Assembly (NCBI RefSeq): GCF_027925305.1
Contig: NZ_BSDR01000001.1
Location: 1,329,001 to 1,393,000, forward strand
Length of the DNA stretch: 64,000 nt
Direction of reading: 5' to 3'
From: Desulforhabdus amnigena
Lineage (GTDB): Bacteria > Desulfobacterota > Syntrophobacteria > Syntrophobacterales > Syntrophobacteraceae
Shown: positions 23,941-57,563 of the stretch, in pieces
Layout of the letters: every line of letters starts with the position of its first letter
How positions within the stretch are numbered: the first letter of the stretch is position 1
Made by a program: the position numbers and the translations under genes
Notes under the pieces: model-generated
The model's database searches: none
Seen by the model: only the letters and a program-made list of their open reading frames with translations
Told to the model about the DNA's origin: nothing

Positions 23941-23960
23941 TATTGGACTTTGGTCCAATA
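23941..23960. promoter_or_regulatory. 20-bp palindrome TATTGGAC-TTTG-GTCCAATA, site 1
   Basis: Perfect 8-base arms around TTTG, 7 bases beyond the stop of the FixJ-type regulator and 294 bases upstream of the receiver gene at 23647. The same palindrome recurs at 36085 and 57544. It has no T-tract, so an operator is more likely than a terminator. Confidence 0.7.
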
Positions 23961-23967
23961 CGGCAGG

Positions 23968-24594
23968 TCAAATCTCTGGGGAACGAATACACAATTTTTC
24001 GGCAAAACGGACAAGATCCGCCAGGGATCCGGCGCCCAGTTTTTCCATGATGCGGGCACGATGCACCTTGATGGTTTTTTCGCTGGTTCCAAGATCGTAA
24101 GCGATCTGCTTGTTCAGCATGCCGGTAACGACAAGCCCGAAGACTTCATGTTCACGTGGGGTCAAAGTTTTCAGCCGCTCACGGAGCTTCCTCAGTTCTC
24201 TTTGCTCCTGTTTCGCTTGCCGGTCCGCCGCGACAGCCCTGGAAACGACATCCAGCAAGTCCTTGTCCAAAAAAGGCTTCTCAAGAAAATCAACCGCGCC
24301 GGCTTTCATGGCCCGGACGCTCATGGGAACGGTCCCATGTCCGGTAATGAAAATGATAGGAAACGCAATTTCCTTCTCGGCCAGACGCTCCTGCAATTCG
24401 AGACCACCCAGTTCGGGCATTTTAACGTCGAGAACGAGGCAACCCGGCACATCCGGGTGTTGGAAATCCAGGAAATCGAGGGCTGAAGTGAAGGTCTTGA
24501 CGTCATAACCTTCTGATCGAAGCAGCCGCTCCAGGGATTTCAACACGGATGGATCGTCATCAACTACGTATACGACGGACCTTTGATCCCTCAC
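23968..24594 (-). CDS. FixJ/TodT-type response regulator
   Basis: A 208-residue two-domain regulator: receiver (about 5-125; acidic VVDDDPS at 11-17, phosphoacceptor Asp56 in LVLDVKMP, Lys in FLEKPF) and a C-terminal LuxR-type helix-turn-helix (about 140-200; LTPREHEVFGLV, NKQIAYDLGTSEKTIKVHR). It should bind DNA when phosphorylated by the kinase encoded directly upstream: its GTG start overlaps the kinase stop (GTGA). Target sites are unknown; the palindrome 7 bases beyond its stop is a candidate. Confidence 0.92.
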   Translation of the reverse strand: MRDQRSVVYVVDDDPSVLKSLERLLRSEGYDVKTFTSALDFLDFQHPDVPGCLVLDVKMPELGGLELQERLAEKEIAFPIIFITGHGTVPMSVRAMKAGAVDFLEKPFLDKDLLDVVSRAVAADRQAKQEQRELRKLRERLKTLTPREHEVFGLVVTGMLNKQIAYDLGTSEKTIKVHRARIMEKLGAGSLADLVRFAEKLCIRSPEI

Positions 24595-27230
24595 GGCTGC
24601 TCTCCCCGGTCCACCGGCAGGGTAAAATAAAAGGTGGCTCCGCCTTCCGGGTTGTTCTCAGCCCCTATCGTCCCGCCGTGGGCACTGACAATAGTCCGGC
24701 TGATCGACAACCCCATTCCCAGGCCGTCCGCTTTCGTTGTGTAAAAAGGCTCGAACAGGCGGTCCATGTCCTTCTTGTGGATGCCGGTGCCCGTGTCCCT
24801 GATGGAAACCATGACAGCCCGACTGCCCTGCCCGGCTGTCCTGATGACCAGTTTCCTCAGAGCCGGAGGGGTCTCTCTCATGGCGGCGGTCGCATTCAGC
24901 ATCAAGTTCAAAATGACCTGTTGCAACTGCACGCGATCACCTTCCACGGTAGACAGTTCGGAATCCAGCTCAGTCGTGAGGGAAAACCCTTCAAGAGAAG
25001 ATGCGCTGCGAACGAGCGCTATGGATTCGCGAACAGTATCGTTCAGGTCCACCGTTTCGCGGCGAGGAGTCTCTTTCTTGACAAGAGCCCGCATCCTCCG
25101 GATCACCTCGCCGGCCCTCCTGTCATCCTGGATGATGTCATCAAGGATCTTTTGGATCTCGTCCAGGTCCGGAGTACCCCTGGAGAGGAACCGTTGCGCG
25201 GCTTCGGCGTTGCAAAGGATAGCCGTCAGAGGCTGGTTGATTTCATGGGCCAGCGACGTGGCCAGCTCCCCCACCGTGACGATCCGTGTGATGTGGGCAA
25301 GCTCTTCCCTGCGCAACTGGGCCTCCAACTCGGCAGCTTTTCGTCCGCTGATATCCGTGATGGAGATCACGACACCTCCACCCGGATTCCTGAAGGGCAC
25401 CGCCTTCATCAAAAGCCATCGGGATTCCAAGGGTGAATCACAGGGATATTCGAGCGAGAAAGTATCGCCCTTGCCGTCCAGGACAGACTGGATGCCATCG
25501 AGGATCTGGGCGGCAAAATCCCCAGGCGATTGGATAGATCGCCGGCACTCCTCCAGGTAGTTGACTCCGGGACCCAATCCAGCAAGCGAAGTGACGCCGC
25601 TTTGTTGGTGGGCAAACTTCTCCCATGCCTCATTCACGGCGAGGATCGTCCCGTTCTTGTCCAGGATTGCAACATAATTCTTCAGGGACGCCAGAACAGC
25701 CCGGTTGAATTCTTCGGAAGCCTTTATGGCTTCTTGAGCACGTTTGTACTCGGTGACGTTCTTGACGGTGTAAACGACGCCCGTGATTTCCTTTTTGTCA
25801 TCGAGGACCGGGTCAGCGGAGACAAAGAGCCACGCATCCCTTTTCTCATCATAAAGAACCGCATCTTCATGTCTTTTGGTCTCCAACATCCTTGACAAAG
25901 GACAATCATCAAGGTGCGCGCCGGCTGCATACATCGCCTCGTAGTAGCGTTTGCCCAGGATTCTGTCCATAGGGAACCCAAGGAACGGCACAGTGGCCGC
26001 ATTGACCTGGACTATTCGCAATTCGTTGTCGAGGACCATGATCAGATCCGGAATGGAGTCAAAAGTAGTCCGCCACTCGTCAGCGGCTTTCCGAAGGGCA
26101 CGTTCGGCCCGGCGTCGCTTCCGAAGACTGATGATAAAGTTGGATACGAGAAGTGTCTGGATGATTAGAATCGAAGCGATTCCAACGGCCTGCCAACGGT
26201 ATGTGTCCCATATGGAAAAATCCCTGTAACGCACATCGCTGCCCTGAGGCAGATTCCCCTCTCGGATCCCCCAACGTTTGAGTTGACGCGCATCGAATAT
26301 ATACTGACTCCCACTTTCCCCGAGAGAATTCATGTTGTCCGGCTTTTCCCCGGCGAGTATGCGAAGCGCCACCCGGCCCGTCCTGGCTCCCTGGGCGGAG
26401 TGACTGAGCAGGGAACCGCCCACAATCCCTGAACCGATGTACGTTTCAGAAACACTGTAAATCGGTGCGTTCGCCTGCCCGGAAATGAGGGCCAGGGCAT
26501 CGGGGGACTTGAAAGATCTTCCGGTACCATCTCGAAAAATAGAGATATAAAACACCAGGGAGTGTTCGGGGAGAGTTGAAACACGGTGGAGGAGTTCCTC
26601 TATTGGGAGCCCGGAAAGATATTGGAGATCCACCTGGTTTTCGAAACCACGAAAGACTTTCCTGGCCATGCCTTCCAACGATTGATCATACCGGGATGCT
26701 CCGGTCACGACAAAAACCCTGCGGACATCCGGATGAAGGCGCATGGCCAAAGTCAAAGTACCCGCCATATCCAGTTCACCCGCCAGCACGGCCGCAACGG
26801 GCAAAGGCATTGGATCAACGAGTAGCTTAGGGTCCTGCTCGTAGTAAATTATAGGAATATTATGAAAGGATTCGGGACCGTATTCCGCCAAGAATTCGAG
26901 GGATGCGCGCAGGTCGGCAACAATGAGATCAATCTTAAGGCCTGAGTATTTTTCACGGTATAGATCCATCAACTTATCATGGTAAAGTTCGTCCGGAAAT
27001 CTGGTCAGGTCCATGCATTCGACGTAGAATTCGAACTCGTAATCCTTCGAGTCCGTCAATGTTGATCGAAAAGCGGCATCAAAACTGACGAACCCGGGCA
27101 TATTGCTCTCATATGGGAAGAGGATCAGGATCCTCTTAGAGGGTACCGACGCCGATGAGTCGTGAGGAATGGCGAAAAGCAACAGCCCAAAAAACAAGGC
27201 TGATTTTATCGTGCGACTCATGGGTCTCAT
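24591..27230 (-). CDS. Membrane sensor histidine kinase with ABC-type periplasmic sensor and two PAS domains
   Basis: An 879-residue kinase. A signal segment (about 8-27) leads into a periplasmic domain (28-343) that resembles ABC-transporter substrate-binding proteins (RILILFPYESN start, GSGIVGGSLLSHSAQGA, RILAGEKP). One membrane helix (347-369) leads to PAS domains at about 384-500 and 505-632, a HisKA domain with His662 in HEINQPL, and an HATPase domain with NLMLNATAAM, DTGTGI and GLGMGLSIS. It is FixL/DctB-like and should phosphorylate the FixJ-type regulator encoded next. The sensor suggests it reads a small periplasmic ligand. The ATG at 27230 has GGAAA upstream. Confidence 0.9.
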   Translation of the reverse strand: MRPMSRTIKSALFFGLLLFAIPHDSSASVPSKRILILFPYESNMPGFVSFDAAFRSTLTDSKDYEFEFYVECMDLTRFPDELYHDKLMDLYREKYSGLKIDLIVADLRASLEFLAEYGPESFHNIPIIYYEQDPKLLVDPMPLPVAAVLAGELDMAGTLTLAMRLHPDVRRVFVVTGASRYDQSLEGMARKVFRGFENQVDLQYLSGLPIEELLHRVSTLPEHSLVFYISIFRDGTGRSFKSPDALALISGQANAPIYSVSETYIGSGIVGGSLLSHSAQGARTGRVALRILAGEKPDNMNSLGESGSQYIFDARQLKRWGIREGNLPQGSDVRYRDFSIWDTYRWQAVGIASILIIQTLLVSNFIISLRKRRRAERALRKAADEWRTTFDSIPDLIMVLDNELRIVQVNAATVPFLGFPMDRILGKRYYEAMYAAGAHLDDCPLSRMLETKRHEDAVLYDEKRDAWLFVSADPVLDDKKEITGVVYTVKNVTEYKRAQEAIKASEEFNRAVLASLKNYVAILDKNGTILAVNEAWEKFAHQQSGVTSLAGLGPGVNYLEECRRSIQSPGDFAAQILDGIQSVLDGKGDTFSLEYPCDSPLESRWLLMKAVPFRNPGGGVVISITDISGRKAAELEAQLRREELAHITRIVTVGELATSLAHEINQPLTAILCNAEAAQRFLSRGTPDLDEIQKILDDIIQDDRRAGEVIRRMRALVKKETPRRETVDLNDTVRESIALVRSASSLEGFSLTTELDSELSTVEGDRVQLQQVILNLMLNATAAMRETPPALRKLVIRTAGQGSRAVMVSIRDTGTGIHKKDMDRLFEPFYTTKADGLGMGLSISRTIVSAHGGTIGAENNPEGGATFYFTLPVDRGEQP

Positions 27231-27440
27231 AAGATGCTTTCCGGGTAGGACCAGAGTAGGATATTCCAGCTCACCATACCTATATATAAGTAATCTGGTA
27301 AATTGGAATTGTGTTTTTTTTCCCTATTTTTTTATTATAAAATAAATTCAGATAGATCATCAAGAGCAATCCTCTTTTTTAGAATGGGTATATAGGGCGT
27401 GTGCGGTAAACAGGTGAAGAGTTTCCACGGAGGTTAACTC

Positions 27441-29117
27441 ATGGAAGAAACAACAAGATCACATGCGGCAAGATTGGCGATTCGTAATTTCAGAATTGCA
27501 GCCGATGCTCTCCTGCTGATCGGTCGCTTCAAAATGGAGGGACGTTCCGGCCAGGTTCTGCAGGATTCTCTGAAGACCCTCAGCCCTGAAATCTATGGAA
27601 CCATGAACGATCCCAAGAGCATAGAATTGAAGGGACTAGAATACGTCATGGACAGACTGCCGCGGGGAATCGAAGAATGCTGCCGTTTCGTGATGACCTC
27701 GGAAGAAGATTTGGGAGACACTCCATTTGTAATGCTGCAACCACTGAAGCGCAGGAGAACTTCTTATCGCATCAATGAGAAGGAAATGTGCTTCGTGATA
27801 ACACGCGGTTTTAGTGAGATATACGACATCTTAACGCACCTGACATTCTTGTACATCGAGGCAAAGAATATTCACAGCAAAATGAGAGACCAGGAAGGGA
27901 ATTTGACTACGGAATGGAAGGAATTCGATAAGTTCATGGAAACCGAGGATGAGCTTGATAGTGAACATCTAAATCGCGCAATCTGGAACTTGAGTATCAT
28001 TCTTGGCAGGACTTTTCACGAAACGAAAGACACATACGAATATTTTGACAGATCCAAGAAAGAAATGAATGCCAGCAATGGTCTGTTTAAAATTATCCAC
28101 AGCCTCGGAACCGGGATGGGATACATAGTTGATAATCAGGCTGACGTTGAGATCCAGTTCACACCGGATTTGAGCCACGTTATCCTGCATCAAATGTATG
28201 GAAAGAGATGGGCCGCCGGGATCACGGACAAACTGTTGAAACTGAATTTAGAGAATCGTCCGTTGCATATAATAAGCTCAAATCTCCACAGCGTCGTTAA
28301 TCTTTTATACGGATACGCAGCGGTTGGAACCGGCACAGATAAAAAATTTACTCAGGATCTCTACACATTTGTCCAGGAATTACGGAATAGAAGTGATGAA
28401 ATCAGAGAATATGCCAGGAATCATGGTTTTTACGAGGTCCCTGATAAAAGCGGTGCGCATATCGATTGTCAGATCATCGATACTGCCAATCTGAATTTCG
28501 AGGGTTTGCATCCCGATCTGCGAATCAACGTGGAAGTTGTGCAGGATGAAAAGCCGGTTGTTCTCGTAATGGATTATGCTTTTGGAACGCAGGCCTTTGA
28601 ACTGATTGATTCATTATTGCAGCCTATGATGATCGAGGGAGAGGAAAAGAACCTGAACCTTCGCTCCATATCCGTTATGGGGAAGGCGGGAACGCTGCGG
28701 GGAAAGAAGGGAGATATAATGATACCCACAGCCCACGTGCTCGAAGGTTCCGCGCACAATTACATTCTAGATAATGATCTGACGGAAGAAGATTTCGATG
28801 GTTACAAGGATGTCTTTGTGGGTCCGATGATAACGGTGCTCGGAACCTCTTTGCAGAACCGGGATGTGCTCGAAACATTTAAAACCACGAGCTGGAAAGC
28901 CGTAGGTCTGGAAATGGAAGGCGGGCACTACCACCGCGCCATCAATGCGGCCATGATCCGTGAGCACATCTCAAAAGACGTGAAAGTCCGATATGCCTAT
29001 TATGCCTCTGATAACCCGCTCAAGAGCGGTCAAACCCTCGCTTCGGGCAGTCTGGGAATTGAAGGGATCAAGCCGACCTACATGATTACGAAGCGTATTT
29101 TGGAGAAGATCTTGTAG
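27441..29117 (+). CDS. Uncharacterised 558-aa protein with nucleosidase-like C-terminus
   Basis: A cytoplasmic protein with no signal peptide. The N-terminal half is helical and charged and matches nothing I know. The C-terminal third resembles the nucleoside phosphorylase/nucleosidase superfamily: ISVMGKAGTLRGKKGDIMIP near 411-430, VGPMITVLGTSLQNRDVL near 459-476 and the purine/ribose-binding type GLEMEGGHY near 488-496. The length and layout fit a conserved domain of unknown function (I think DUF6909, from memory). A role in nucleotide or NAD salvage, like AMP nucleosidase, is an inference. CACGGAGGTT precedes the ATG. It is divergent from the sensor kinase gene, sharing an AT-rich 210-base intergenic region. 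Confidence 0.65.
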   Translation: MEETTRSHAARLAIRNFRIAADALLLIGRFKMEGRSGQVLQDSLKTLSPEIYGTMNDPKSIELKGLEYVMDRLPRGIEECCRFVMTSEEDLGDTPFVMLQPLKRRRTSYRINEKEMCFVITRGFSEIYDILTHLTFLYIEAKNIHSKMRDQEGNLTTEWKEFDKFMETEDELDSEHLNRAIWNLSIILGRTFHETKDTYEYFDRSKKEMNASNGLFKIIHSLGTGMGYIVDNQADVEIQFTPDLSHVILHQMYGKRWAAGITDKLLKLNLENRPLHIISSNLHSVVNLLYGYAAVGTGTDKKFTQDLYTFVQELRNRSDEIREYARNHGFYEVPDKSGAHIDCQIIDTANLNFEGLHPDLRINVEVVQDEKPVVLVMDYAFGTQAFELIDSLLQPMMIEGEEKNLNLRSISVMGKAGTLRGKKGDIMIPTAHVLEGSAHNYILDNDLTEEDFDGYKDVFVGPMITVLGTSLQNRDVLETFKTTSWKAVGLEMEGGHYHRAINAAMIREHISKDVKVRYAYYASDNPLKSGQTLASGSLGIEGIKPTYMITKRILEKIL

Positions 29118-29208
29118 GCTCGGACGAGGACGTTGGAACCTTCCAAGGGGCGTGGGAGACCACGGGTCTTTGACCTTCTGCCCGCAGTCTCTCTTTCTGA
29201 GTGACTCA

Positions 29209-29661
29209 TTACTTGAGATTAATATTCACCCCCCCACTGCCCAGGGTTATACCCAATCCCTTTGTGGTCGCCACCACTTCAATCACCACGCCATTTTGAT
29301 TTTTCATCGTCACGGCCCCAGCTCCACCACCCAGCGAAGCACCTGCGCCAACGCCCACATAGTTACCGTTGATGTCTTCCAGCTTCTTGAGATTGTAGAC
29401 TGTGCCGGTAGCGGTTGCCTTGGTGATACCCACTTTGCCAACACTCATTCCGTCCACTTTCAATGGGTAAGACTTTCCCTTGTAACTGAGGGTTCCACCG
29501 CCCCAACTGAATCCAATACCCGCTGCGACACTGCCGGTCTCAAAGTTGATTATGGCATCCGGCGTTTGTTCCTCTGCAGTAAAACCCGGCACAGGAACGA
29601 ACGCCAAGAAGGCTGCAACAACGACAAAAACTATTGAACAACGTAAGCTGACTCTTTGCAT
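29209..29661 (-). CDS. Exported protein of unknown function
   Basis: A 150-residue protein with a signal peptide (about 1-28, ending PGFTAE) and a compact beta-rich mature part. INFETGSVAAGIGFSWGGG, KSYPLKVDGMSVGKVG and GNYVGVGAGASLGGGAGAV look like a conserved small domain seen in hypothetical secreted proteins of other proteobacteria; I do not know a function. AAGGAGAGATGCT before the ATG at 29661 sets the start (the frame is open to 29745). It lies between the nucleosidase-like gene (converging) and the RND operon. Confidence 0.65.
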   Translation of the reverse strand: MQRVSLRCSIVFVVVAAFLAFVPVPGFTAEEQTPDAIINFETGSVAAGIGFSWGGGTLSYKGKSYPLKVDGMSVGKVGITKATATGTVYNLKKLEDINGNYVGVGAGASLGGGAGAVTMKNQNGVVIEVVATTKGLGITLGSGGVNINLK

Positions 29662-29864
29662 AGCATCTCTCCTTTCCGGCCCAACCACCATATCGAAGTT
29701 GGAACCTTCTATGGGAATGAAAAGGGGCAACACCCACCCCAACAAATCATCCGGTAGCGATGGATGATTAAAACCTTAAGGATTTCATCTACCATTGAAG
29801 CGCTTGTTGTATTCGGGCAAAAGCACCCTGCCTGGCTTCCGCGGGCAATTATTCCGCCCGGAGC

Positions 29865-31307
29865 TCAATCGTCAGCATGCTTCTGAGAGGTCGTGAAGGT
29901 TCCGGTCTCCTGCCAGCCACCGCCAAGGGCTTTGTATAGCTGGACGACGGCAAGGAGCTGGTTGAGCTCGGTCCGGGCGAGGGTCGTCTCTGCCGGATAA
30001 AGGTTTTGCTGGTTCTGCAGGATCTCGTAATAGCTCGCTTTCCCGGCCACGTAGCGCTTGATGGAAACCTTGACTGCCTCCTCATAGGCTTTCACCGAGC
30101 GGGCCTGGTCGGCACGGCTCGCTGCGAGCTTCTGCCGGGAGATGAGAGCGTTGGATACTTCCTGGAAAGCATTCAGGGCCGTTTGTTCGTAGACCAGTTT
30201 GGCTTCTTCCCAAGCCGCTTTCGCCTGCCGATACTCGGCGATCAGCGTGCCGCCCTGGAAGAGGGGACCCGTCATCGCACCGGCGACAGCCCACAGGTTG
30301 GAGGTGCCGGATGTGAACGCGGAGAGTTCCGGGCTGACCTGGCCGAGCAGTGAGGTAAGGCCAATCTGGGGGAAAAAATTGGTCATGGCGACACCGATCT
30401 GCGCATTGGCGGCCCGCAGATTCTGTTCCGCCTGGCGGATATCCGGGCGCCGTTCCAGCAATGCCGATGGCAGGCCGGCGGGAATTTCCGGTGGACTGAC
30501 CTGTTCCAGCAAGGTGGCGTTGCGCTCGACGGGACCGGGATTGCGCCCCAGGAGGACATTGATCTGGTTTTCCTTAAGTACAATGAGGCGTTCTACTTCG
30601 GGAACATTGGCCGCAGCCGTACCCAGTAAACCCTCGGCGCTGGATGTTTCCAGCTTGGACGCGACCCCGCCCTCGAGCCGCTGGGTGAAAATCTTTAAGG
30701 TATCCTCAAAGGATTGTGTGGTCTTTTTGTTGATCTCCAGTTCGAGATCGAGTTCGAGCAGCTCGAAGTAGGCTTGAGCCACGGCGCTCACAAGAGAAAC
30801 CACAACACCCCGGCGGCCTTCTTCGGTGGCCAGGTATTGTGCCCGGGCGGCTTCATTCAGGCGGCGGATTCGACCCCAGAAATCCATTTCCCAGAACACA
30901 TTCAGGCCAAGGAGAGCGGAATCCTCCGTGCTGCCCCCATTGGGGCTGGGGGTGGTGAGGAAACTGTTCTTACCCTTGGCAACGATTCCATCGTAAGCGA
31001 TCTGGGGGAAAAACTGCCCCCGTGCCTGGGCGGCAATCTGGCGCGCCTGCTCGACACGAGTCGCGGCCACGCGCAGGTCGTAATTGTTTTCGAGCGCTTC
31101 AGTGATGAGTCGCTGGAGGGTCTCATCCTGGAAAATTTGCCACCATGGGAGGTCCGCAAGAGAATGTTGCTCTGCCGGTGTCATGGCACTCCGAAAGTTC
31201 TCGGGAGCATTGACGGCCGGGCGTTTGTAGTTGGGTCCGAGAGCACAGCCGGACACGCAAAAAAACAAGAGAATCCAGAGGGACAGTTGCTTTGTAAGCC
31301 TTTCCAT
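29865..31307 (-). CDS. Outer-membrane efflux channel lipoprotein (NodT/OprM family)
   Basis: A 480-residue TolC-like channel. The lipobox in FCVSGCALGPNYKRP gives an acylated N-terminus, as in OprM and NodT. The family's two coiled-coil repeats are visible as long helices (YDLRVAATRVEQARQIAAQ and the late YEQTALNAFQEVSNAL). It would form the outer-membrane exit of the tripartite pump encoded by the two genes upstream. The start lies 2 bases after the stop of the RND gene; GAGGGCAC precedes the ATG. Last gene of the operon. Confidence 0.92.
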   Translation of the reverse strand: MERLTKQLSLWILLFFCVSGCALGPNYKRPAVNAPENFRSAMTPAEQHSLADLPWWQIFQDETLQRLITEALENNYDLRVAATRVEQARQIAAQARGQFFPQIAYDGIVAKGKNSFLTTPSPNGGSTEDSALLGLNVFWEMDFWGRIRRLNEAARAQYLATEEGRRGVVVSLVSAVAQAYFELLELDLELEINKKTTQSFEDTLKIFTQRLEGGVASKLETSSAEGLLGTAAANVPEVERLIVLKENQINVLLGRNPGPVERNATLLEQVSPPEIPAGLPSALLERRPDIRQAEQNLRAANAQIGVAMTNFFPQIGLTSLLGQVSPELSAFTSGTSNLWAVAGAMTGPLFQGGTLIAEYRQAKAAWEEAKLVYEQTALNAFQEVSNALISRQKLAASRADQARSVKAYEEAVKVSIKRYVAGKASYYEILQNQQNLYPAETTLARTELNQLLAVVQLYKALGGGWQETGTFTTSQKHADD

Positions 31308-31309
31308 CG

Positions 31310-34300
31310 CTAGTGCCCTCCACCGGAACCGTGAGTTGTCGGTTCATCCATTGGGGGTGATTCATGCTTTACGCCACGATGAGACAACTTTTCGACCACA
31401 TAGAAGGTCACCGGGATGAGAAAGATGGCAATGAAGCTCGCCATCATCATCCCGCCAATGACGACAAACCCCATGACCTGGCGGGAAAGTGCCCCGGCGC
31501 CGCTGGCCCTGGCCAACGGGACGCATCCCAGGATGAATGCAAAGGACGTCATCAGGATGGGCCGAAGGCGCAGGCGTGCGCCTTCCAGGGCCGCTTCCAC
31601 AAGCGGTTTGCCCTGGTCGTAGCCCATCTTGGCGAACTCCACGATGAGAATGGCATTCTTCGCGGCAAGCCCTATGAGCATGACCAGACCGATTTGTGCA
31701 TACACGTTGTTTTCGAAACTGCCGATCCACAAACCCATAAACGCTCCGGCCACGGCAATGGGCGTGCCGAGCAGCACGCTGAACGGCAGGCTCCAGCTCT
31801 CATACTGGGCGGCGAGAATCAGGAAGACGCAAAGCAGCGAGAAACCGAAGATGACGGCCGGTGAGACGCCTTCCTGGGCCTTTTTTTCCTGGTAGCTCAT
31901 CCCCAGGTAGTCAAAGCCCATCTCGCGCGGCATGGTCTGAGCGAAGACCTCCTCCATCGCCTTCATGGCCTGGGCGGAGCTGAAGCCGGGTTTGGCGGAG
32001 GCGTTGATCTGGGCGGAGCGGTACAGGTTGTAGCGCATGGTGAATTCAGGACCCGCGGTTGGGTTTGTGGCCGTGACGGCCGAGAGCGGCACCATGTTGT
32101 CCGCGCTGTTGCGCACGAAAAACTGCCCCATGTCGCTGGCACGGGTGCGGTAGTCGCCCTCCGCCTGCACGTAAATCTGCCACTGGCGGCCAAATCGGTT
32201 GAAGTAGTTCACAAAGATACCACCCATGAAACACTGGAGCGTCTGGTAAACATCCTTGAGCGGCACGCCCTGCTTCAACACCTTGTCGCGGTCCACGTCC
32301 ACGGACACCTGCGGCACCACGGGACGAAACGTGGTGGAGACGCTTGCCAGCTCAGGGCGTTCGCGGGCGGCGGCAACGAATTTTTGCACATTTTCGGCCA
32401 GGAAGCCGATGTCCCTGCCCACGCGATCCTCGAGGATGAAGGTCACTCCACCGGAGGCACCGATACCCGGAATGGCCGGCGGCGAGAAGGCAAAGCCAAC
32501 GGCCCCGGTAATGTCACGAAATTTCTGATTCAGATGGGTCATGATGGCCTCGTACTTTTCCTCGGGCTTCTTGCGCTTTCCCCAATCCTCCAGGGTGATG
32601 AAGAAAAAACCGCTGTAGGTGTTCTGCACCTGGCTCAGCATGCTGTAGCCGACAATGGATGAATAATATTTCACTCCAGGCGTCTTGCTCAAAATCTCTT
32701 CAGCCTGCTTCATGATTTCGTCGGTGCGCTGCAGTGATGCCGCATCGGGCAGTTGCACCCCCGCATACATGTACCCCTGGTCCTCTTCCGGCAGGAAGCT
32801 TGTCGGGATTCCCTTGCCGAGAAAACCCGCAAACATGGTGATGCCTGCGAGGAGCAGCAGCGATACGACACTTTTGCGGATGAGCAGACTACAGGTGCTG
32901 ACATAGCCTCCCGTGGCGCGGTCGAATACCTTGTTGAACCAGCGAAAAAATATGGCCAGGGGGCCTCGTGACTCTTTTTTCGGTCGCAGCAGCAATGACG
33001 CCAGGGCGGGACTCAGGGTGAGAGCGTTGAATGCGGAGATGACCACCGATACGGCAATGGTAACCGCGAATTGCTGATAGAGGCGGCCCGTGATGCCGGG
33101 GATGAACGCTGTCGGCACAAAAACGGCCGAAAGGATAATGGCGATGGCGATGACAGGCCCGGATACCTCTTCCATGGCTTTGAGAGTAGCATCCTTGGGC
33201 GACATTCCGTGCTCGATGTGATGTTCGACGGCTTCGACCACCACGATGGCGTCATCCACCACCAGGCCGATGGCGAGCACCAGGCCGAAAAGCGACAGGG
33301 TATTGATGGAGAAACCAAACAGGGGAAACAGGGCGAAAGTACCCACCAGGGACACGGGCACCGCCAAAAGAGGGATCAAGGTGGCACGCCAGCCCTGCAG
33401 GAACAGGAAGACCACGATAATGACCAGCACCAGGGCTTCTACAAGGGTGTGCTCGATCTCTTTCATACCCTCGGTGACGGCCAGGGTTGTGTCGAGGGCG
33501 ACCGCGTAATCGAGATCCGGAGGAAAGCTCTCTTTAAGCCGCTCCATGAGCTTTTTCGCCCCCTCCGCAGCTTCAATGGCGTTGGACCCAGGCAGCTGGT
33601 AGAGCGCCACAAGGGCCGCCGGCTTGCCGTTGAGGCGGCCGATAAGGTTGTAGGTCTGGGCTCCCAATTCGATGCGGGCGACGTCTTTGAGGCGCACGAA
33701 GGACCCATCCGGCTGCGCCCGTACTATGATTTCACCAAACTCCCGCTCGTTTTCCAAACGGCCCTGGGCACGGACCGCATAGGTGAATTCCTGTCCCGGG
33801 GGCACCGGCTCCGCGCCGATCTGGCCGGCGGGGTTCACGGTGTTCTGCGTTTGGATGGCCTTGACGATTTCGGGAATGGTGATGTTGAGCTTGGCGAGCT
33901 GGTCGGGTTTTACCCAGAAACGCATGGAATACTGGCCCGCACCAAAGACCGTAACGCTGGCGATCCCCGGCACGCGAGTCATCTGGTCGTTGATGTTGAT
34001 GTAAGAGTAATTGGCAAGAAAGATGCCGTCGTAGGTGCCGTTGGGTGAATAGAGAGCGAACATGATGAGCGGAGCGGAAGTGGACTTTTGCACCGTAACA
34101 CCATAGTCACGAACGTCCGACGGCAATTGGGATTCGGCCTGCCCTTCGCGCATCTGTGCCAGAATCTGATCCGTGCTCGGGTCGGTCTTCACGTCAAAGT
34201 TGACGTAAAGGGTCATCTGCCCATTGTTGGCGTTGAGGGAATACATGTAGTTCATGTTGTCCACACCGGACATCTGTTGCTCGATGGGGGTCGCTACGGA

Positions 34301-34477
34301 CTGTTCGACAGTGATCGCGTCGGCACCGGTGTAGGTGGTTTTGACCTGGATTTCCGGGGGAACGATGTTGGGAAACTGCGCGATGGGCAGGACCGACATC
34401 GCCACCAGGCCGATGATGACCATCAGGATGGAAATCACCATGGCCACGATGGGGCGATTGATGAAGAATCTGGCCAT
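31310..34477 (-). CDS. RND efflux transporter, HAE-1 (AcrB) family
   Basis: A 1055-residue inner-membrane proton antiporter that pumps hydrophobic compounds out through a tripartite channel. N-terminal MARFFINRPIVAMVISILMV is typical. TM4 holds the proton-relay Asp pair in GLVVDDAIVVVEAVEH, and TM10 the Lys in GLAAKNAILIVEFAK. Twelve membrane segments and two large periplasmic loops are present, with the usual length. It lies between the periplasmic adaptor (5 bases) and the outer-membrane factor (2 bases). The substrate cannot be predicted. Confidence 0.95.
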   Translation of the reverse strand: MARFFINRPIVAMVISILMVIIGLVAMSVLPIAQFPNIVPPEIQVKTTYTGADAITVEQSVATPIEQQMSGVDNMNYMYSLNANNGQMTLYVNFDVKTDPSTDQILAQMREGQAESQLPSDVRDYGVTVQKSTSAPLIMFALYSPNGTYDGIFLANYSYININDQMTRVPGIASVTVFGAGQYSMRFWVKPDQLAKLNITIPEIVKAIQTQNTVNPAGQIGAEPVPPGQEFTYAVRAQGRLENEREFGEIIVRAQPDGSFVRLKDVARIELGAQTYNLIGRLNGKPAALVALYQLPGSNAIEAAEGAKKLMERLKESFPPDLDYAVALDTTLAVTEGMKEIEHTLVEALVLVIIVVFLFLQGWRATLIPLLAVPVSLVGTFALFPLFGFSINTLSLFGLVLAIGLVVDDAIVVVEAVEHHIEHGMSPKDATLKAMEEVSGPVIAIAIILSAVFVPTAFIPGITGRLYQQFAVTIAVSVVISAFNALTLSPALASLLLRPKKESRGPLAIFFRWFNKVFDRATGGYVSTCSLLIRKSVVSLLLLAGITMFAGFLGKGIPTSFLPEEDQGYMYAGVQLPDAASLQRTDEIMKQAEEILSKTPGVKYYSSIVGYSMLSQVQNTYSGFFFITLEDWGKRKKPEEKYEAIMTHLNQKFRDITGAVGFAFSPPAIPGIGASGGVTFILEDRVGRDIGFLAENVQKFVAAARERPELASVSTTFRPVVPQVSVDVDRDKVLKQGVPLKDVYQTLQCFMGGIFVNYFNRFGRQWQIYVQAEGDYRTRASDMGQFFVRNSADNMVPLSAVTATNPTAGPEFTMRYNLYRSAQINASAKPGFSSAQAMKAMEEVFAQTMPREMGFDYLGMSYQEKKAQEGVSPAVIFGFSLLCVFLILAAQYESWSLPFSVLLGTPIAVAGAFMGLWIGSFENNVYAQIGLVMLIGLAAKNAILIVEFAKMGYDQGKPLVEAALEGARLRLRPILMTSFAFILGCVPLARASGAGALSRQVMGFVVIGGMMMASFIAIFLIPVTFYVVEKLSHRGVKHESPPMDEPTTHGSGGGH

Positions 34478-34482
34478 GGGTC

Positions 34483-35751
34483 CTAATCCTTCTTGGGTGC
34501 TGGGGTTGGTACAGGCTTTGCCTCGGGCTTGGGAGACGAAACCGACTGGGGCGTAGATTCAGCTTCCACGGATTTGGGATTGACCAGCATACCCTCTTTG
34601 ACCTTCTGAAGCCCCTCCACGATCACACGTTCACCCGGCTGCAGCCCGCTGGTGATGACCCACAGGCTGTCCACACGCTCGCCGGCTTTAACGGACCGAA
34701 TGCTGACCTTGTTTTCCGGCCCCACCACCGCGACCTGATAGCTCCCTTGAAGCTCCATGACAGCCCTCTGAGGAACCATGATGGCGCCTTTCTTAGTGTC
34801 GGTAACGGCGCGTACCCGACCGAACTGGCCCGGCCGCAGGATATCCCCGGGATTGGGGAAAAGAGCCGCAATACGAATCGTGCCGGTCTTTACGTCCACT
34901 TGCCTCTCGGCAAAGGAAAACTCTCCTTTATAAGGATATACGCTGCCATCTGCCAGGATAAGATCCAGCTTCGGGCGTTCGATGTCGGCCTTAGCCCCGG
35001 TTTTGGCGAGATCCCGGGCCAACGCCATATATTCCTGCTCGCTGATGGGGAAATAGACCTTGATAGGATCCACAGTGGAAACGGTGGTGAGATCCCCGGT
35101 CTGGGTCGGACCGACCAGATCGCCCACCTGGGCGTTGGCGCTGCCGGCAATGCCGTCGACGGGCGAAGTGATCTTGGTGAAACTGAGATTCAGTTTGGCC
35201 TGTTCGACGGTTGCCTCCGCAGCCTGAACTCCTGCCTTGGCGGCAAGATTGGCCTGGACCGCGTCATCGAGCTCCTCTTGACTGATGGCGCTCTCCTTGG
35301 CGAGGGGCCGGTAGCGTTTGACATCCAATTCGGTTTTTCCCAATCTCGCCCTGGCTATCGCAAGTTGGGCTTCGGCCTGGTCCAATGCCGCTTTGAACGT
35401 CCGTGGATCGATCTCGAAAAGAAGATCGCCCTTTTTCACCGATGCGCCTTCTTTGTAGGCCTGCCTGGAGAGATATCCCGTCACCTGTGCCCGAATTTTC
35501 GCATTCACCAGCCCCTCGGTGGTTCCAACCCATTCGGAATAAACGGGTACATCCTTTTGCGTAACGGTCACGACCTCGACTTCAGGAACGGGTGGTGTCT
35601 GTGCCGTCACATTCCCCACCAACCCGCCAACAAGAACGAACAAGACACCGGCCAGAAATATCCCGAGCAAGCCATTCCCTGCGGGAAACAGCCGGAACAG
35701 ACCGCGCTCACTCCGCCAAGGTTGTACTTCAAACCGCTTTTCCTCTCGCAT
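34483..35751 (-). CDS. RND periplasmic adaptor (AcrA/MFP family)
   Basis: A 422-residue membrane-fusion protein joining the pump to the outer-membrane channel. A hydrophobic N-terminal segment (about 23-50) serves as signal or anchor; no lipobox Cys is seen. The lipoyl halves are VRAQVTGYL-like (KIRAQVTGYLSRQAYKEGA) and SFTKITSPVDGIAG, with a coiled-coil hairpin between them (ALDQAEAQLAIARARLGKTE). The C-terminus is an Ala/Pro/Lys-rich tail. CAGGAGCG precedes the ATG at 35751. First gene of the pump operon; the palindrome at 36085 lies 334 bases upstream. No TetR-type regulator is adjacent. Confidence 0.93.
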   Translation of the reverse strand: MREEKRFEVQPWRSERGLFRLFPAGNGLLGIFLAGVLFVLVGGLVGNVTAQTPPVPEVEVVTVTQKDVPVYSEWVGTTEGLVNAKIRAQVTGYLSRQAYKEGASVKKGDLLFEIDPRTFKAALDQAEAQLAIARARLGKTELDVKRYRPLAKESAISQEELDDAVQANLAAKAGVQAAEATVEQAKLNLSFTKITSPVDGIAGSANAQVGDLVGPTQTGDLTTVSTVDPIKVYFPISEQEYMALARDLAKTGAKADIERPKLDLILADGSVYPYKGEFSFAERQVDVKTGTIRIAALFPNPGDILRPGQFGRVRAVTDTKKGAIMVPQRAVMELQGSYQVAVVGPENKVSIRSVKAGERVDSLWVITSGLQPGERVIVEGLQKVKEGMLVNPKSVEAESTPQSVSSPKPEAKPVPTPAPKKD

Positions 35752-35946: not shown

Positions 35947-36084
35947 GATCAAGGGTATTCGGACCGTTTTGAGATAGCTTCTAAATTCCAGAGTAAACAT
36001 TGCACTGCAACCCTGGAGAACTTTGAGAGAGTCGCAACGACACAGCTGACGGTAAGACTATTACCTGGAAAGCAGAGGAAACAA

Positions 36085-36104
36085 TATTGGACCTTAGTCC
36101 AATA
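36085..36104. promoter_or_regulatory. 20-bp palindrome TATTGGAC-CTTA-GTCCAATA, site 2
   Basis: Perfect arms (9 bases if the flanking A/T is counted) around CTTA. It lies 334 bases upstream of the RND adaptor start and 84 bases beyond the K+ channel stop. Differs from sites 1 and 3 only in the 4-base centre. Confidence 0.7.
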
Positions 36105-38294: not shown

Positions 38295-39380
38295 TTATCC
38301 CGCTGGGATCGTCACGATCGGCGCCCCCTCCTTGCCACCCGTTTCCACAAGAGTGAATATGAACATGAGGAAGGAAAACATGCGCTTGGATGGCAGGTCC
38401 CGGTCATCGATCCAGAACCAGTAATCACGGTAGGGCACCGCGACGAACGCATCGGTGATTTTTTCGCGGGAGCTGTGAATTCGGATCAGGGGGATCAAAG
38501 GACTACCAGGGTCAGCCTCTTCTATGTTCGTTGGGTTGACCCGCTTTTCCTCTACGTGGATATCAGGGACCTCGATATAGGAGGCGAGATCGACGATGAT
38601 TTCGAGAATGGAGCGGCTCAGAATCGCCAATTCCCGGTCGTTTTTCGCTATAGATGCATACACGACGGCAAACTCCTGTGCCTTGGCGTCAAGACCCAGC
38701 ATCTTTCTTACGGCAAGGCTGTCCTCTTCGGTAGCCTGATCCAGCTTACTGCGGAAGGTCATGAGCGTAGCTTCCTTCTCGTTCGTTTTCTGAACCCGCA
38801 GGCCGATGGCCCCTGAAACCTGAAGCCTTCGAAGTCTCTCGATCAGCGGGTAGAACTCGGGATCTGCGGGACGTGCCCGTGCCGCACCTCCGTAGCGGTT
38901 CCTGATCCCATTTATGGAATGAACGCAGAGTCTCAGCACCAGATCGACAGGGTAATTGGCCTGGATCAGGCTCAGGATCGCTGCAGGAGGGATCGGGGTC
39001 ATGAGACTCCGGGCGAACTTCTCTCCTGTAATCGGACTGTAAGTGATGGTAGGACGATCAATGTAGCGGGCAGCGCCCCCTGCGGTCTGACTATTTGTTA
39101 GACCGGCGGTGATAGGATCTGCCCAGGTCAGTCGGAGGTCTACCTGGCTCTCGACGGAATACTGGTTGATGACCGAGGCAACATCGAGGAAGGTGGGAGT
39201 ATCCCCGTAGCGGAGCTTGACCATGTTGACCAGCATCTGAGCCTTCCAGGAATCGGAAATGGCGGAGGTATAGTCGAACCGGTCGCGAGCAACGGTGTAC
39301 GGCCCGACGCCCGCACACCCCATGAGAGAGAAAAGGAGGCTGATGAGAACAGCCGTTTTGAACTTTTTCTTAACAGTCAT
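38295..39380 (-). CDS. Uncharacterised lipoprotein
   Basis: A 361-residue protein with a signal helix and the lipobox LMGC, so it should be lipid-anchored in the envelope. The mature part has no motif I recognise; it is soluble and mixed alpha/beta, with YRDYWFWIDDRDLPSKRMF near the C-terminus as the most distinctive stretch. Similar lipoproteins occur in various proteobacteria without known function. ATG at 39380 is preferred to 39404 on account of the GGAG upstream. It is the upstream neighbour of the CPA1 antiporter. Confidence 0.7.
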   Translation of the reverse strand: MTVKKKFKTAVLISLLFSLMGCAGVGPYTVARDRFDYTSAISDSWKAQMLVNMVKLRYGDTPTFLDVASVINQYSVESQVDLRLTWADPITAGLTNSQTAGGAARYIDRPTITYSPITGEKFARSLMTPIPPAAILSLIQANYPVDLVLRLCVHSINGIRNRYGGAARARPADPEFYPLIERLRRLQVSGAIGLRVQKTNEKEATLMTFRSKLDQATEEDSLAVRKMLGLDAKAQEFAVVYASIAKNDRELAILSRSILEIIVDLASYIEVPDIHVEEKRVNPTNIEEADPGSPLIPLIRIHSSREKITDAFVAVPYRDYWFWIDDRDLPSKRMFSFLMFIFTLVETGGKEGAPIVTIPAG

Positions 39381-39410
39381 CCCCCGGCGCTCCTTTCGCA
39401 GCAAAGATCT

Positions 39411-39549: not shown

Positions 39550-39550
39550 G

Positions 39551-49692: not shown

Positions 49693-50132
49693 GATGCACC
49701 CTCCTGAGCGTCGTTGTATTCCGTTCCTCCAGCTCCCACGTCCATCAGTTCGAGACAGTCATGCGGGCAGAATGGGACACAACGCCCGCAGTGAATACAC
49801 ACGAACGGCTCTCCCGTAAAATCGAGAAAAACAGCATCTACCGGGCAGGCCCGGGCACACTCTCCGCACCGGATGCAGAGGCTCTTTTTCACGATTACTC
49901 CTCCTCCTTTCCGCTGTGAATAGGCACCGGTGGGGCAAGCCGCCGCACATGGAGCAGGCAGGCAGGCAAGACAGGTTCTGGCTTCAAATCCCGTGGAGAG
50001 GCCCCCGGATGACGATATCCGGATTCCTGCCGTATCCCATGAGAGGTTCTTGTGCACGAGGCGGGCACAAGCCAGGGAGCACGAATGACAACCGATACAC
50101 CGCTCCATTCTTGGTGCCGTGAGTATTTTCAT
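49689..50132 (-). CDS. Polyferredoxin subunit with four [4Fe-4S] clusters
   Basis: A 147-residue iron-sulfur protein. Four cysteine groups: CIGCHSC...C near 12-22, CLACLPAPC...CP near 54-66, CIRCGECARACP near 86-97 and CIHCGRCVPFCP near 111-122. The pattern is that of HycB/AorA-like electron-transfer subunits that accompany AOR enzymes. It probably carries electrons from the oxidoreductase to other acceptors. The ATG overlaps the glgX stop by four bases, and its own stop overlaps the AOR start by four bases, so all three are translationally coupled. Confidence 0.9.
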   Translation of the reverse strand: MKILTAPRMERCIGCHSCSLACARLVHKNLSWDTAGIRISSSGGLSTGFEARTCLACLPAPCAAACPTGAYSQRKGGGVIVKKSLCIRCGECARACPVDAVFLDFTGEPFVCIHCGRCVPFCPHDCLELMDVGAGGTEYNDAQEGAS

Positions 50133-52252: not shown

Positions 52253-52265
52253 TTCTTCTTCTCGA

Positions 52266-54764: not shown

Positions 54765-54794
54765 TTTGCAGCTCCATGATGCTCTGGATGAAAA

Positions 54795-55832
54795 TCACTT
54801 CACGGCACAGAGGGTGGTGCCTACCCCGCGGAGGGCGGTCACAGCCATTTTGACCCTCTCGGCCATGGACGCCTCAGCCATGGCAAGGTAAGACCGGGGA
54901 TCATATTTCTTCTTGTTGCCCACTTCACCGTCTACCTTGAGCACTTCGTCGTAGTTCTTGAACATGTGGTCGACTATGGCCCGTGTGAAGGCATACTGGG
55001 TGTCCGTGTCGATGTTCATCTTCACGACGCCGTAATCGATGGCTTCATGAATCTCTTCCGGAAGCGAACCGGAACCGCCATGGAATACGAGATAGAACCT
55101 CGCATCCTTGCCATATTCTTTTTCAACGGCATCCTGGCCATCTTTGAGGATAGACGGTTTAAGCTTCACATGTCCGGGTTTATAAACTCCGTGAACATTG
55201 CCGAAAGTGGCGGCAAGAAGAAACCGTGATCCCTTGACGGCTCCCAGACGTCGGGCGACCTGCAGCATGTCTTCAGGCGTGGTGTAGAGCTTCTCGGCGG
55301 GTGCGCCTTCCGCTTTGATTCCATCCTCCTCGCCGCCGACCACTCCGGCCTCGACCTCTAAAATCAAGTCGTTTCGGTGGCAGCGATCGAGAAGCGGAAC
55401 GGCAATGTCCAGGTTTTCCTTCAAGGGCAGAGCGCTTCCGTCAAACATGTGACTGTTGAAAAGGTTGGGAAGCCCGGCCTTCCGACGTCTCTCCGTTTCC
55501 TCCACAAGAGGGATGAGAAAACTATCCAGCAGCTGGGCCTGGCAATGGTCCGTGTGCAGAGCGACGTATATGTCATAGCGGTCGGCGACCCTGTGGACAT
55601 GCTCCGCTATGGAAATGGCCCCCAGCACCATGTCCTTCACTGATGACCCGGAGGCGAAAGCCGCTCCCCCTGTCGAAACCTGAACGATTCCATCGCTTCG
55701 GCTCTCGGCCAGTCCTTTTAAAACGGCATTGGCGGTAGTGAGGGAGCTGACGTTGATCGCCGGATAGGCAAAGTGGTTTTCCCTGGCTCTATCGAGCATC
55801 TTGCAATAGGTTTCATAATCAGCGATTGGCAT
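54795..55832 (-). CDS. fba: Class II fructose-bisphosphate aldolase
   Basis: A 345-residue zinc-dependent aldolase joining dihydroxyacetone phosphate and glyceraldehyde 3-phosphate. HTDHC (about 93-97) gives the zinc and catalytic residues; FGNVHGVYKPG and FHGGSGS form the phosphate/zinc site; VKMNIDTDTQYA matches the class IIA/FbaA end. Cytoplasmic. It stands between pfk (125 bases upstream, with a small GC hairpin) and glgP. Confidence 0.94.
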   Translation of the reverse strand: MPIADYETYCKMLDRARENHFAYPAINVSSLTTANAVLKGLAESRSDGIVQVSTGGAAFASGSSVKDMVLGAISIAEHVHRVADRYDIYVALHTDHCQAQLLDSFLIPLVEETERRRKAGLPNLFNSHMFDGSALPLKENLDIAVPLLDRCHRNDLILEVEAGVVGGEEDGIKAEGAPAEKLYTTPEDMLQVARRLGAVKGSRFLLAATFGNVHGVYKPGHVKLKPSILKDGQDAVEKEYGKDARFYLVFHGGSGSLPEEIHEAIDYGVVKMNIDTDTQYAFTRAIVDHMFKNYDEVLKVDGEVGNKKKYDPRSYLAMAEASMAERVKMAVTALRGVGTTLCAVK

Positions 55833-55868
55833 AGGGCCTCCTGTTCACTGGGAAACACGGTTAACAAT

Positions 55869-55885
55869 CCGGCCGATGCGGCCGG
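55869..55885 (-). terminator. Small GC hairpin in the pfk-fba gap
   Basis: CCGGCC-GATGC-GGCCGG, a 6-bp all-GC stem with a 5-base loop, in the 125-base gap. There is no T tract on either strand, so it may be an attenuator, an mRNA processing or stability hairpin, or chance. Confidence 0.35.
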
Positions 55886-55957
55886 CGCCCGAGGCGTGAA
55901 AGGCTGCGGGCACAGCGAGAGCAATGTTGGCTCCCGACCTCCACGCTCATGCGATGA

Positions 55958-57244
55958 TCACATCCTTGCCGGCTGGCCTGTTGACGCCAGGACGATGTTC
56001 CACAACCTTCCATCCGGATCGATCTTCTTTCGCTTGGAGACAGCCATAGGGATGGGGACATGGGTGAATGCGCCACCCCAGTCGCCTACCACCATGTTGG
56101 TCCGCCCGGCCATGCCCGCATGCACTGCGTTTTGACCGAGAAGCAGGCAGAACGCCGAGTCGTGAGCATTGGCCGGCACGCTCCGTATGATGTAACTGGG
56201 ATCGATGTATTTGAGGTTGATCTCTTTTCCGAGTCCTTTGAAGTGGGCATTGATCTGATCGCGCAGGAAGCTCCCGATATCTCCAAAGCGGATATTTCCT
56301 GAAGCGTCCAGCTGTTGCGTCTTTTGCATGAGATCCTGGCCCGCCCCTTCTCCCACCACGATGACGGCATGCCCTTTTTCGTCCAACCGCTTTTCAAGGG
56401 CCTCAAGAAAGCCCTTCAGCGTAAATGGAAGCTCCGGAATCAAGCAGTAGTTCACATCATTGTAAGCTAGGGCAGCGAATGCTGCAATAAAGCCCGATTC
56501 GCGTCCCATCAGCTTTACCAGACCAATACCGTTCCTCGCTCCTTTTGCCTCTGTATGGGCTGAAACTATTGCGGCTCCGGCCTCCGTAACAGCCGTTTCA
56601 AAACCGAAGGACCTCTGCACATAGGATATGTCGTTGTCGATGGTCTTGGGGACTCCGATCACGGCGATCTTCAGCCCGCGCTTCCCGGCTTCCTCCGCGA
56701 TCGCCTGTCCTCCCCGCAAGGTGCCGTCCCCTCCTATGGTAAAGAGGATCCCTATCTTCATCCGTTCCAGCGTATCCACCATTTCGGAGACATCTTGAGG
56801 TCCGCGGGAAGAACCCAGGATCGTTCCTCCCTGCTCATGGATCCTTGCCACCGAATTTAGAGTCAGCTCCACGGGCACGTGCTTGTGCCGACAACTGAGC
56901 CCCTCATATCCGTAAGGGAAGCCAAATATGTTCTGCACTCCGTAATGGTGGAAAAGGCTCATCACGATCGCCCGAATAACATCATTCAAACCAGGGCAGA
57001 GGCCGCCGCACGTCACGATCCCACATTTCAGTTTGGCGGGATCGAAATAGATCTTGGCTCTGGGACCGGCCTTTTCAAAGAACGGCGGCGTCTTGCTTGC
57101 CTTCAAATACTCTTGGATTTTCCGCAGGTTGTTGTCATAGAGCACATGGTCTTCGTCGTCGACGAAATGCGTACCGGGCATGGGGGACGGGATTCGACAC
57201 TCGCCCAATCGGGATATAGTAAGATCCAACTTACCTTCCTGCAT
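55958..57244 (-). CDS. pfkA: 6-phosphofructokinase (ATP-type by GGDG signature)
   Basis: A 428-residue phosphofructokinase. GGDGT at 171-175 fits ATP use (PPi enzymes have GGDD), while PKTIDND at 199-205 carries the Lys seen in PPi-type and in the long ATP enzymes of trypanosomes and spirochaetes; MGRESG at 246-251 binds fructose 6-phosphate. The combination fits the long ATP-PFK subgroup. ATG at 57244 with AAGGAGACGTGCT decides the start; the frame is open to 57280. It is the first gene of the glycogen-AOR run, and the third palindrome is 300 bases upstream. Confidence 0.9.
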   Translation of the reverse strand: MQEGKLDLTISRLGECRIPSPMPGTHFVDDEDHVLYDNNLRKIQEYLKASKTPPFFEKAGPRAKIYFDPAKLKCGIVTCGGLCPGLNDVIRAIVMSLFHHYGVQNIFGFPYGYEGLSCRHKHVPVELTLNSVARIHEQGGTILGSSRGPQDVSEMVDTLERMKIGILFTIGGDGTLRGGQAIAEEAGKRGLKIAVIGVPKTIDNDISYVQRSFGFETAVTEAGAAIVSAHTEAKGARNGIGLVKLMGRESGFIAAFAALAYNDVNYCLIPELPFTLKGFLEALEKRLDEKGHAVIVVGEGAGQDLMQKTQQLDASGNIRFGDIGSFLRDQINAHFKGLGKEINLKYIDPSYIIRSVPANAHDSAFCLLLGQNAVHAGMAGRTNMVVGDWGGAFTHVPIPMAVSKRKKIDPDGRLWNIVLASTGQPARM

Positions 57245-57487
57245 AGCACGTCTCCTTGGTCGTCTTCGTAGACTGTCCAAATTTTAAGACCGAAAGACTG
57301 AACAAGTAAGGTGGTCCTCCTGGAGCGCAAGGGCCGGCATCTTATCTTTCTACGGCGTTAGAAAATTGCACTGCAACGTCTGCACAGCACATCCCGGCCC
57401 CCTGCGTGGAACGCCTACAAAAGTCGATCAAGCGAAAAAACGTTTGTAGCAAGCTCCGGTGTCAGCCGGGGTTTGAAGATCCGGCAG

Positions 57488-57517
57488 GTGACGTCTTCCG
57501 GGAGAACTCGTTATAAT
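57488..57517 (+). promoter_or_regulatory. Possible sigma-70 promoter
   Basis: GTGACG (57488-57493) and a consensus TATAAT (57512-57517) with an 18-base spacer, reading rightward. The -35 box is only a 4/6 match. It would place the palindrome at 57544-57563 about 20-40 bases into the transcript leader. Confidence 0.35.
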
Positions 57518-57543
57518 TTATACAAAAACAATGTGGGGATCGA

Positions 57544-57563
57544 TATTGGACTTTGGTCCAATA
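57544..57563. promoter_or_regulatory. 20-bp palindrome TATTGGAC-TTTG-GTCCAATA, site 3
   Basis: Identical in all 20 bases to site 1 (23941-23960). It lies 300 bases upstream of pfkA (minus) and 301 bases upstream of the His-rich gene (plus), just after a possible rightward promoter. Confidence 0.7.

Follow-up and report, generated by a model that had tools for sequence, protein, structure and literature searches.

A palindrome at three promoters of Desulforhabdus amnigena as the predicted operator of a FixJ/StyR-type response regulator

Results

Three palindromes beside a two-component gene pair

We analyzed a stretch of 64,000 nucleotides of the D. amnigena genome (the window; positions 1329001-1393000 of C1, the only contig of the 4,536,740-base assembly), in which the palindrome TATTGGACYTTRGTCCAATA was found at 23941-23960, 36085-36104 and 57544-57563. 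A recount of the sequence bore out what a first-pass annotation of the window had said of these positions: the three copies share identical arms, and copies 1 and 3 match in 20 of 20 bases. The distances given there to a receiver gene, a resistance-nodulation-division (RND) pump operon and pfkA (294, 334 and 300 bases) were reproduced from the open reading frame (ORF) coordinates, taking the pfkA start as 57244. All three sites point to minus-strand genes. Predicted operator 1 (23941-23960, minus strand; TTGGACCAAAGTCCAA when read toward its target) directly follows the gene of a FixJ-type regulator, 7 bases past its stop codon as the annotation had it, and faces a stand-alone receiver gene. 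Predicted operator 2 (36085-36104, minus strand) has the target-strand centre TAAG and lies upstream of the RND efflux operon, and predicted operator 3 (57544-57563, minus strand), with the target-strand centre CAAA, lies upstream of the phosphofructokinase gene.

The FixJ/StyR-type response regulator (23968-24594, minus strand), our proposed binder of the palindrome, has a receiver domain (Response_reg, PF00072, E=1.7e-28) and a GerE/LuxR-type helix-turn-helix (GerE, PF00196, E=2.6e-20). Its phospho-acceptor aspartate is present (LVLDVKMP, in alignment with StyR), and its closest solved structure is StyR (1yio, E=6.7e-56), followed by FixJ (5xso). The gene is overlapped by that of a partner sensor histidine kinase (24591-27230, minus strand), which contains PAS, HisKA and HATPase domains and whose N-terminal part is ABC_sub_bind-like, below the Pfam cut-off.

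The palindrome is rare. Dinucleotide-shuffled versions of the window gave on average 0.01 matches when as many as 3 mismatches were allowed, compared to the 6 strand-matches observed (3 sites). The 16-mer TTGGACN4GTCCAA occurs three times in the whole 4.54-Mb genome, each time inside one 34-kb stretch of the window, and the 20-mer at up to 3 mismatches added just two weak matches, far off at 103330 and 3878697 (one match with the reversed control pattern). We also scanned the genome with a core-plus-spacer pattern, GGACNAANGTCCN{24,26}TANNNT, which returned site 1 and one AAAA-centred match (1 and 2 with reversed controls); sites 2 and 3 were missed because their -10 hexamers lack the final T. 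Neither the 20-mer nor this pattern thus yielded a convincing extra site in the source genome. Since whole-genome copies are found at only three places, the palindrome represents a local set beside a two-component gene pair rather than a genome-wide motif, and the tens of sites that the first-pass annotation had named as support come down to three promoters in one cluster. A literature search for the 16-mer as a written sequence found it in none of the PMC articles searched, a string search that figure logos would escape; for the string TACCTAGGTA, no related paper turned up, judging by titles.

The palindrome tracks the regulator across genomes

The annotation had proposed scanning related genomes. 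We searched a sample of 395 genomes of the phylum for TTGGACYWWRGTCCAA and for orthologues of the regulator (E<=1e-60). The motif was present in 13 genomes, the regulator in 21 and both in 10, so that 10 of the 21 genomes with the regulator carried the motif, compared to 3 of the 374 without it (Fisher p=4e-12, a statistic that ignores relatedness). The reversed pattern gave single matches in 14 genomes, and we therefore regard the motif in the three regulator-less genomes as background. In 9 of the 10 genomes having both, a site and the regulator gene were no more than 0.6 kb apart; G348, the remaining one, has its site on a different contig, inside an ORF. The chance-like sites of G145, G187, G227 and G348 all fall within ORFs.

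In a sample of 26 genomes of the family, TTGGACN4GTCCAA was found in 13, with 1 to 8 matches per matching genome. Because the sole match in three of these (G001, G006 and G020) has a centre other than YAAR or YTTR, we consider the real form of the site to be present in 10. The regulator (E<=1e-40) was also found in 10 family genomes, and regulator and motif occurred together in 8 (G000, G002, G003, G004, G005, G009, G011 and G025). A protein search of named genomes revealed the exact site in 5 of the best 80 loci, each time within 1.5 kb of the regulator: NaphS2 (L038), Deltaproteobacteria metagenome-assembled genomes (L039 and L047), a Syntrophaceae metagenome-assembled genome (L042) and Verrucomicrobium (L092). 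The exact site was not found within the DNA fetched around Pseudomonas and Burkholderia-type homologues.

Gene order is likewise conserved. Counting L042, which lies wholly inside L146 (another collection's copy of that contig), only once, we obtained 16 independent FixJ loci bearing the site, and 13 of them showed the order kinase, FixJ-type regulator, site, receiver (the window, L038 with one gene inserted, L039, L042, L047, L118, L122, L125, L129, L132, L144, L145, which is a close relative of L042, and L150). As for the exceptions, the site lies past the receiver in L092 and L151, and a receiver was not found in L147.

Some relatives carry drifted palindromes at the same position: TACTAGACTAAGGTCTAATA in L040 and, overlapping a GGAC copy, TATCAGACCAAAGTCTGATG in L043. 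The latter overlap, of a drifted and a GGAC-type palindrome between the FixJ and receiver genes, spans L043:4496-4530. At L151:9400-9433, the overlapping palindromes TTGGACTAAAGTCCAA and TGGACCAAGGTCCAA (minus strand) lie upstream of a gene for a sigma-70-family factor, a possible cascade or cooperative binding. Additionally, ATACCTAGGTAT-type palindromes occur within about 1.5 kb of beta- and gammaproteobacterial homologues (L056:11256, L062:8672 and L071:3583) and may serve a different helix branch as its operator; TACCTAGGTA-like boxes were glimpsed beside some homologues of the same two groups.

The recognition helix correlates with the site

We compared the DNA-recognition helix in 95 loci with a homologue of at least 45% identity, counting a site when it lay within 1.5 kb. 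The sequence EKT(I/V)KVHR(A/G/S) was present in all 17 homologues with a site (one contig counted twice). Among the 78 homologues without a site, 12 carry EKT, and none of the 66 homologues lacking EKT has a site. When only the 79 loci from the protein search were considered, the site was found in 5 of 13 with EKT, compared to 0 of 66 without.

A predicted -10 hexamer lies at a fixed distance from most of the palindromes

We aligned 56 distinct sites, three of them chance-like, with the centre reading YAAR; the site of L154 (centre CTAA) is outside this set. Removing L148, L152 and L153 (chance-like), L127 (contig end) and three sites more than 75% alike to counted ones left 49 non-redundant sites. 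Outside the arms and centre, the alignment is rich in information as far as position 18; the 20 bases that follow carry less and are C/T-rich, before the information increases once more at positions 40-45 (consensus TAAA.T). Of the 49 sites, 33 have a TAnnnT that begins at one of positions 39-41, and any other window of three offsets from position 23 gives at most 4. On the opposite strand, 4 of the 49 sites have TAnnnT at 39-41, and the count nowhere exceeds 5. The offset scan starts at 23; at the palindrome edge (positions 17-22), 21 of the 49 sites fit TAnnnT as well. The chance-like site of L153 has TAnnnT by chance.

Since the -10 lies at a fixed distance, the centre of the palindrome falls near -43.5 (with the -10 set at -12 to -7) and the promoter points to the minus-strand genes. 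A would-be -35 box at 17-bp spacing would occupy positions 17-22, which read TATCNT-like and not TTGACA. A class II activator promoter has its binding site across the -35 position and a -10 at a set distance behind it. By sequence, 33 of the 49 sites show this layout, which makes the palindrome a predicted class II activator site with predicted transcription start sites. In the window, the predicted -10 of promoter 1 is TAAAGT (23914-23919, minus strand), identified by the fixed-offset test, with a start placed near 23907. Promoter 2 has a weak predicted -10, TAATAG (36058-36063, minus strand), which does not fit TAnnnT at 39-41 (predicted start near 36051), and promoter 3 has TATAAA (57517-57522, minus strand), which is not TAnnnT and matches TATAAT at five of six positions (predicted start near 57510).

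By simple ORF calling, 24 of the 56 sites have gene starts on the YAAR side alone and 2 on the other side alone, so that the slight central asymmetry would predict the direction of transcription. Rightward promoters, which the first-pass annotation had offered as one reason for the long distances, are not supported: the conserved -10 of the aligned relatives is located toward the minus-strand genes, and on the opposite strand no signal rises over background.

The long distances correspond to predicted leaders

For the odd distance between sites and genes, long leaders had also been suggested, and this account is supported. The predicted leaders of promoters 1, 2 and 3 are about 260, about 300 and 230-270 nucleotides long, and leader 1 is extended by an apparent mobile-element insertion. 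Short leaders exist elsewhere, since in L042 and L145 the receiver gene or, behind a second site, a fasciclin-domain gene starts no more than about 40 bases past the -10. The insertion in leader 1 (23695-23839) resembles a miniature inverted-repeat transposable element (MITE): it is about 145 bp long, with 26-nucleotide imperfect terminal inverted repeats around a nested pair of repetitive extragenic palindromic (REP)-like hairpins, ATTCCGGC....GCCGGAAT, which occurs at 14 places in the genome at up to 1 mismatch. Leader 1 has two short matches to the leader in G005, of 41 and 24 bases, and the window carries about 140 additional bases at this place. Because of these extra bases and the dispersal of the hairpin, the distance at site 1 is best explained by insertion. 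By sequence inspection, leader 2 contains a decayed look-alike of the leader 1 element; leaders 2 and 3 matched none of the leaders of the nine relatives compared.

The sequence ATTGCACTGCAAC, whose core is the inverted repeat TTGCA-C-TGCAA, has exactly two copies in the genome, at window positions 35999-36011 and 57365-57377. These lie in the leaders predicted for promoters 2 and 3 and share one orientation. TTGCANTGCAA was not found in the 40 stretches L118-L157 and, among all fetched loci, occurs otherwise only in L088. The ATTGCACTGCAAC repeat is possibly a second element in the leaders.

Genes behind the predicted operators

Behind operator 1 lie the stand-alone receiver gene (23249-23647, minus strand), the proposed feedback partner, and a gene for a patatin-like lipoprotein (21735-23177, minus strand). 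Operator 2 precedes a tripartite efflux operon (29865-35751, minus strand) encoding an HlyD-like protein, an AcrB-type pump and an outer-membrane efflux protein. The gene run behind operator 3 (36188-57280, minus strand), putatively a single transcript, begins with phosphofructokinase, class II aldolase, glycogen phosphorylase, an isoamylase-like protein and a ferredoxin, and continues with aldehyde:ferredoxin oxidoreductase (AOR), an MscS channel, a glycoside hydrolase and others, up to a Na+/H+ exchanger and an ion channel as the last genes.

The first genes behind sites of relatives include orthologues of the HlyD, aldolase, phosphofructokinase, exchanger, glycoside hydrolase, DUF2092 and AOR genes and of the lipoprotein gene at 38295-39404. 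We scanned 20 further proteins, mostly encoded behind relatives' sites: 7 had no Pfam family, and the others include Ysc84, DUF1269, fasciclin, DUF3300 and MlaE proteins, a sigma-70-family factor, acetyl- and glycosyltransferases, a sulfatase and a response regulator with a SpoIIE phosphatase. The theme of the targets looks like energy reserve together with envelope or ion stress.

Two further features of the window were noted. A DUF6909 protein is encoded at 27441-29117, divergent from the kinase gene, and a selenocysteine tRNA gene lies at 15835-15929 (Rfam RF01852), so that the organism probably makes selenoproteins.

Comparison with known systems

For StyR-like proteins, the accessible part of one article gives the box ATAAACN4GTTTAT and the putative contacts K175, V176 and H179 (PMC5874301). 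As far as that part describes the StyR/TodT/TmoT box, the window palindrome shares its 6-4-6 geometry and its central C...G, but the arms are TTGGAC instead of ATAAAC; it would work like such a box without being a member of the box family. The window regulator keeps the contacts K175 and V176. However, it has an alanine for H179 and a lysine for V172 and thus departs from the residues of StyR, as do the 17 loci with a site, which have lysine at V172 and alanine, glycine or serine at H179. Furthermore, unlike for StyR, TodT and TmoT, there is no aromatic catabolism gene among the named targets in the window.

The FixLJ-FixT systems of rhizobia and Caulobacter similarly combine a kinase, a FixJ-type regulator and a single-domain receiver. 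In Caulobacter, the receiver FixT is described as a feedback inhibitor of the kinase FixL (PMC7078487, in the part available). A single-domain receiver gene under the FixJ-linked operator was found in 13 of the 16 independent loci, from which its expression under the system would follow, and the phospho-acceptor aspartate is kept in all 17 receivers aligned (by eye). The window receiver may therefore damp its kinase as FixT does FixL, by analogy. The 17 receivers have 1 to 6 cysteines each; FixT has a 4-cysteine Fe-S motif. The window operator is unlike published FixJ sites such as TAAGTAATTTCCCTTA, as given in the accessible part of PMC4999443.

NarL-type regulators also use a GerE/LuxR-type helix-turn-helix on inverted repeats, but the sequence and spacing of these differ from the window palindrome. 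Among sulfate reducers, the response-regulator sites of Desulfovibrio vulgaris are mostly palindromes with arms of 4-6 bp and spacers of 3-8 bp; in the main text of that map, as far as available, no GGAC or GTCC string was found, its motifs being shown in a figure (PMC3333781).

Discussion

Read together, the computed recurrence of the site, its linkage to the regulator, the fixed -10 in relatives, the polarity and the helix correlation make it very probable that the palindromes are predicted operators of the regulator encoded at 23968-24594, acting by class II activation at three promoters. The kinase (24591-27230) would, upon its presumed signal, phosphorylate the regulator, a dimer of which would bind each palindrome. 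Centred near -43, the bound dimer would make contacts where a -35 box would sit and recruit polymerase to a promoter with a -10 but without a -35 box, and the near-symmetric centre, YAAR toward the gene, would mark the direction of the promoter. In the source genome, the predicted regulon would comprise three promoters, those of the receiver and patatin genes, of the RND efflux pump and of the phosphofructokinase-glycogen-AOR-channel genes. As a competitor for the kinase, the stand-alone receiver behind operator 1 probably dampens the system. The first-pass annotation had proposed that the palindrome is the operator of a single regulator, with the FixJ-type protein encoded next to site 1 as the candidate, and co-occurrence, adjacency and the helix correlation in relatives support this.

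Several observations weigh against this assignment. The arms and the central AA were fixed by collecting sites with exact arms, so that the invariance of the arms is by construction, and just one of the three window sites (site 1) fits TAnnnT strictly. By simple ORF calling, gene starts lie on both sides of the site in 15 of the 56 cases and on neither side in another 15. Of the 95 helix loci, 16 are the window and 15 stretches fetched mostly for having the motif, and the helix correlation could reflect shared descent. TTGGACYWWRGTCCAA was not found in 11 of the 21 phylum genomes with the regulator, and the family genomes G006 and G023 have a regulator homologue without TTGGACYWWRGTCCAA. Conversely, G010 (88% complete) and G018 have sites, and the regulator was not found there; that of G018 may be off-contig, since its kinase gene reaches the contig end at L142. 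Finally, G011 has no site beside its regulator, and its kinase and regulator genes are on opposite strands.

The same regulator could bind the palindrome as a repressor that blocks polymerase at the promoter, as a site in contact with the -35 region can repress. We consider this unlikely: the sites are accompanied by a -10 and by TATCNT-like sequence at the -35 place (17-bp spacing), as expected of activator-dependent promoters, and StyR, TodT and FixJ are activators.

It is quite improbable that the protein binding the site is another regulator, from a gene elsewhere, and that the linkage to FixJ reflects inheritance of a gene cluster. Linkage alone is no proof, because the targets form a cluster conserved in the family, and other shared DNA-binding genes were not systematically sought. 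However, the linkage persists in distant loci with other targets (a fasciclin gene in L042, a DUF3300 gene in L047, and Verrucomicrobium L092), and homologues with changed sites keep a related core at the same position (L040 and L043).

The annotation had named a mobile repeat or a terminator as what would refute an operator, and neither fits the palindrome. That the upstream gene has its terminator or a structured RNA end here, as suggested by an 8-bp stem with a 4-base loop directly past the FixJ-type stop at site 1, is highly improbable, as no T-run follows the palindrome, sites 2 and 3 are not so close behind a stop, relatives have a -10 at a fixed distance after the site, and at the gathering threshold Rfam matched none of the sites, the selenocysteine tRNA being its only match in the window. 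A MITE- or REP-like mobile repeat has practically no probability in spite of the REP-like hairpins nearby (the 14 genome places mentioned above): instead of many dispersed copies there are only three, in one cluster and between genes, the conservation of their flanks is confined to the promoter signature, and their distribution tracks the regulator gene. We rejected both readings because of the distribution, the missing T-run and the fixed -10.

A broader version of the operator assignment is tentative, at somewhat less than an even chance. The regulon may span lineages from Desulfobacterota to Verrucomicrobia, with an EKT(I/V)KVHR regulator reading the GGAC palindrome, YAAR setting the direction, the receiver feeding back, and the glycogen-glycolysis, AOR, efflux and ion-channel genes forming one energy and envelope stress response.

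Overall, the predicted regulon is new and of a known kind. With it, an uncharacterised two-component system in anaerobes for which there is little regulatory data gains a predicted binding site, a layout for its promoters and a list of targets. StyR positions 172 and 179, set against ATAAAC and TTGGAC arms, represent a candidate specificity switch, and the receiver gene, which is conserved behind the operator of its own system, represents a candidate feedback loop.

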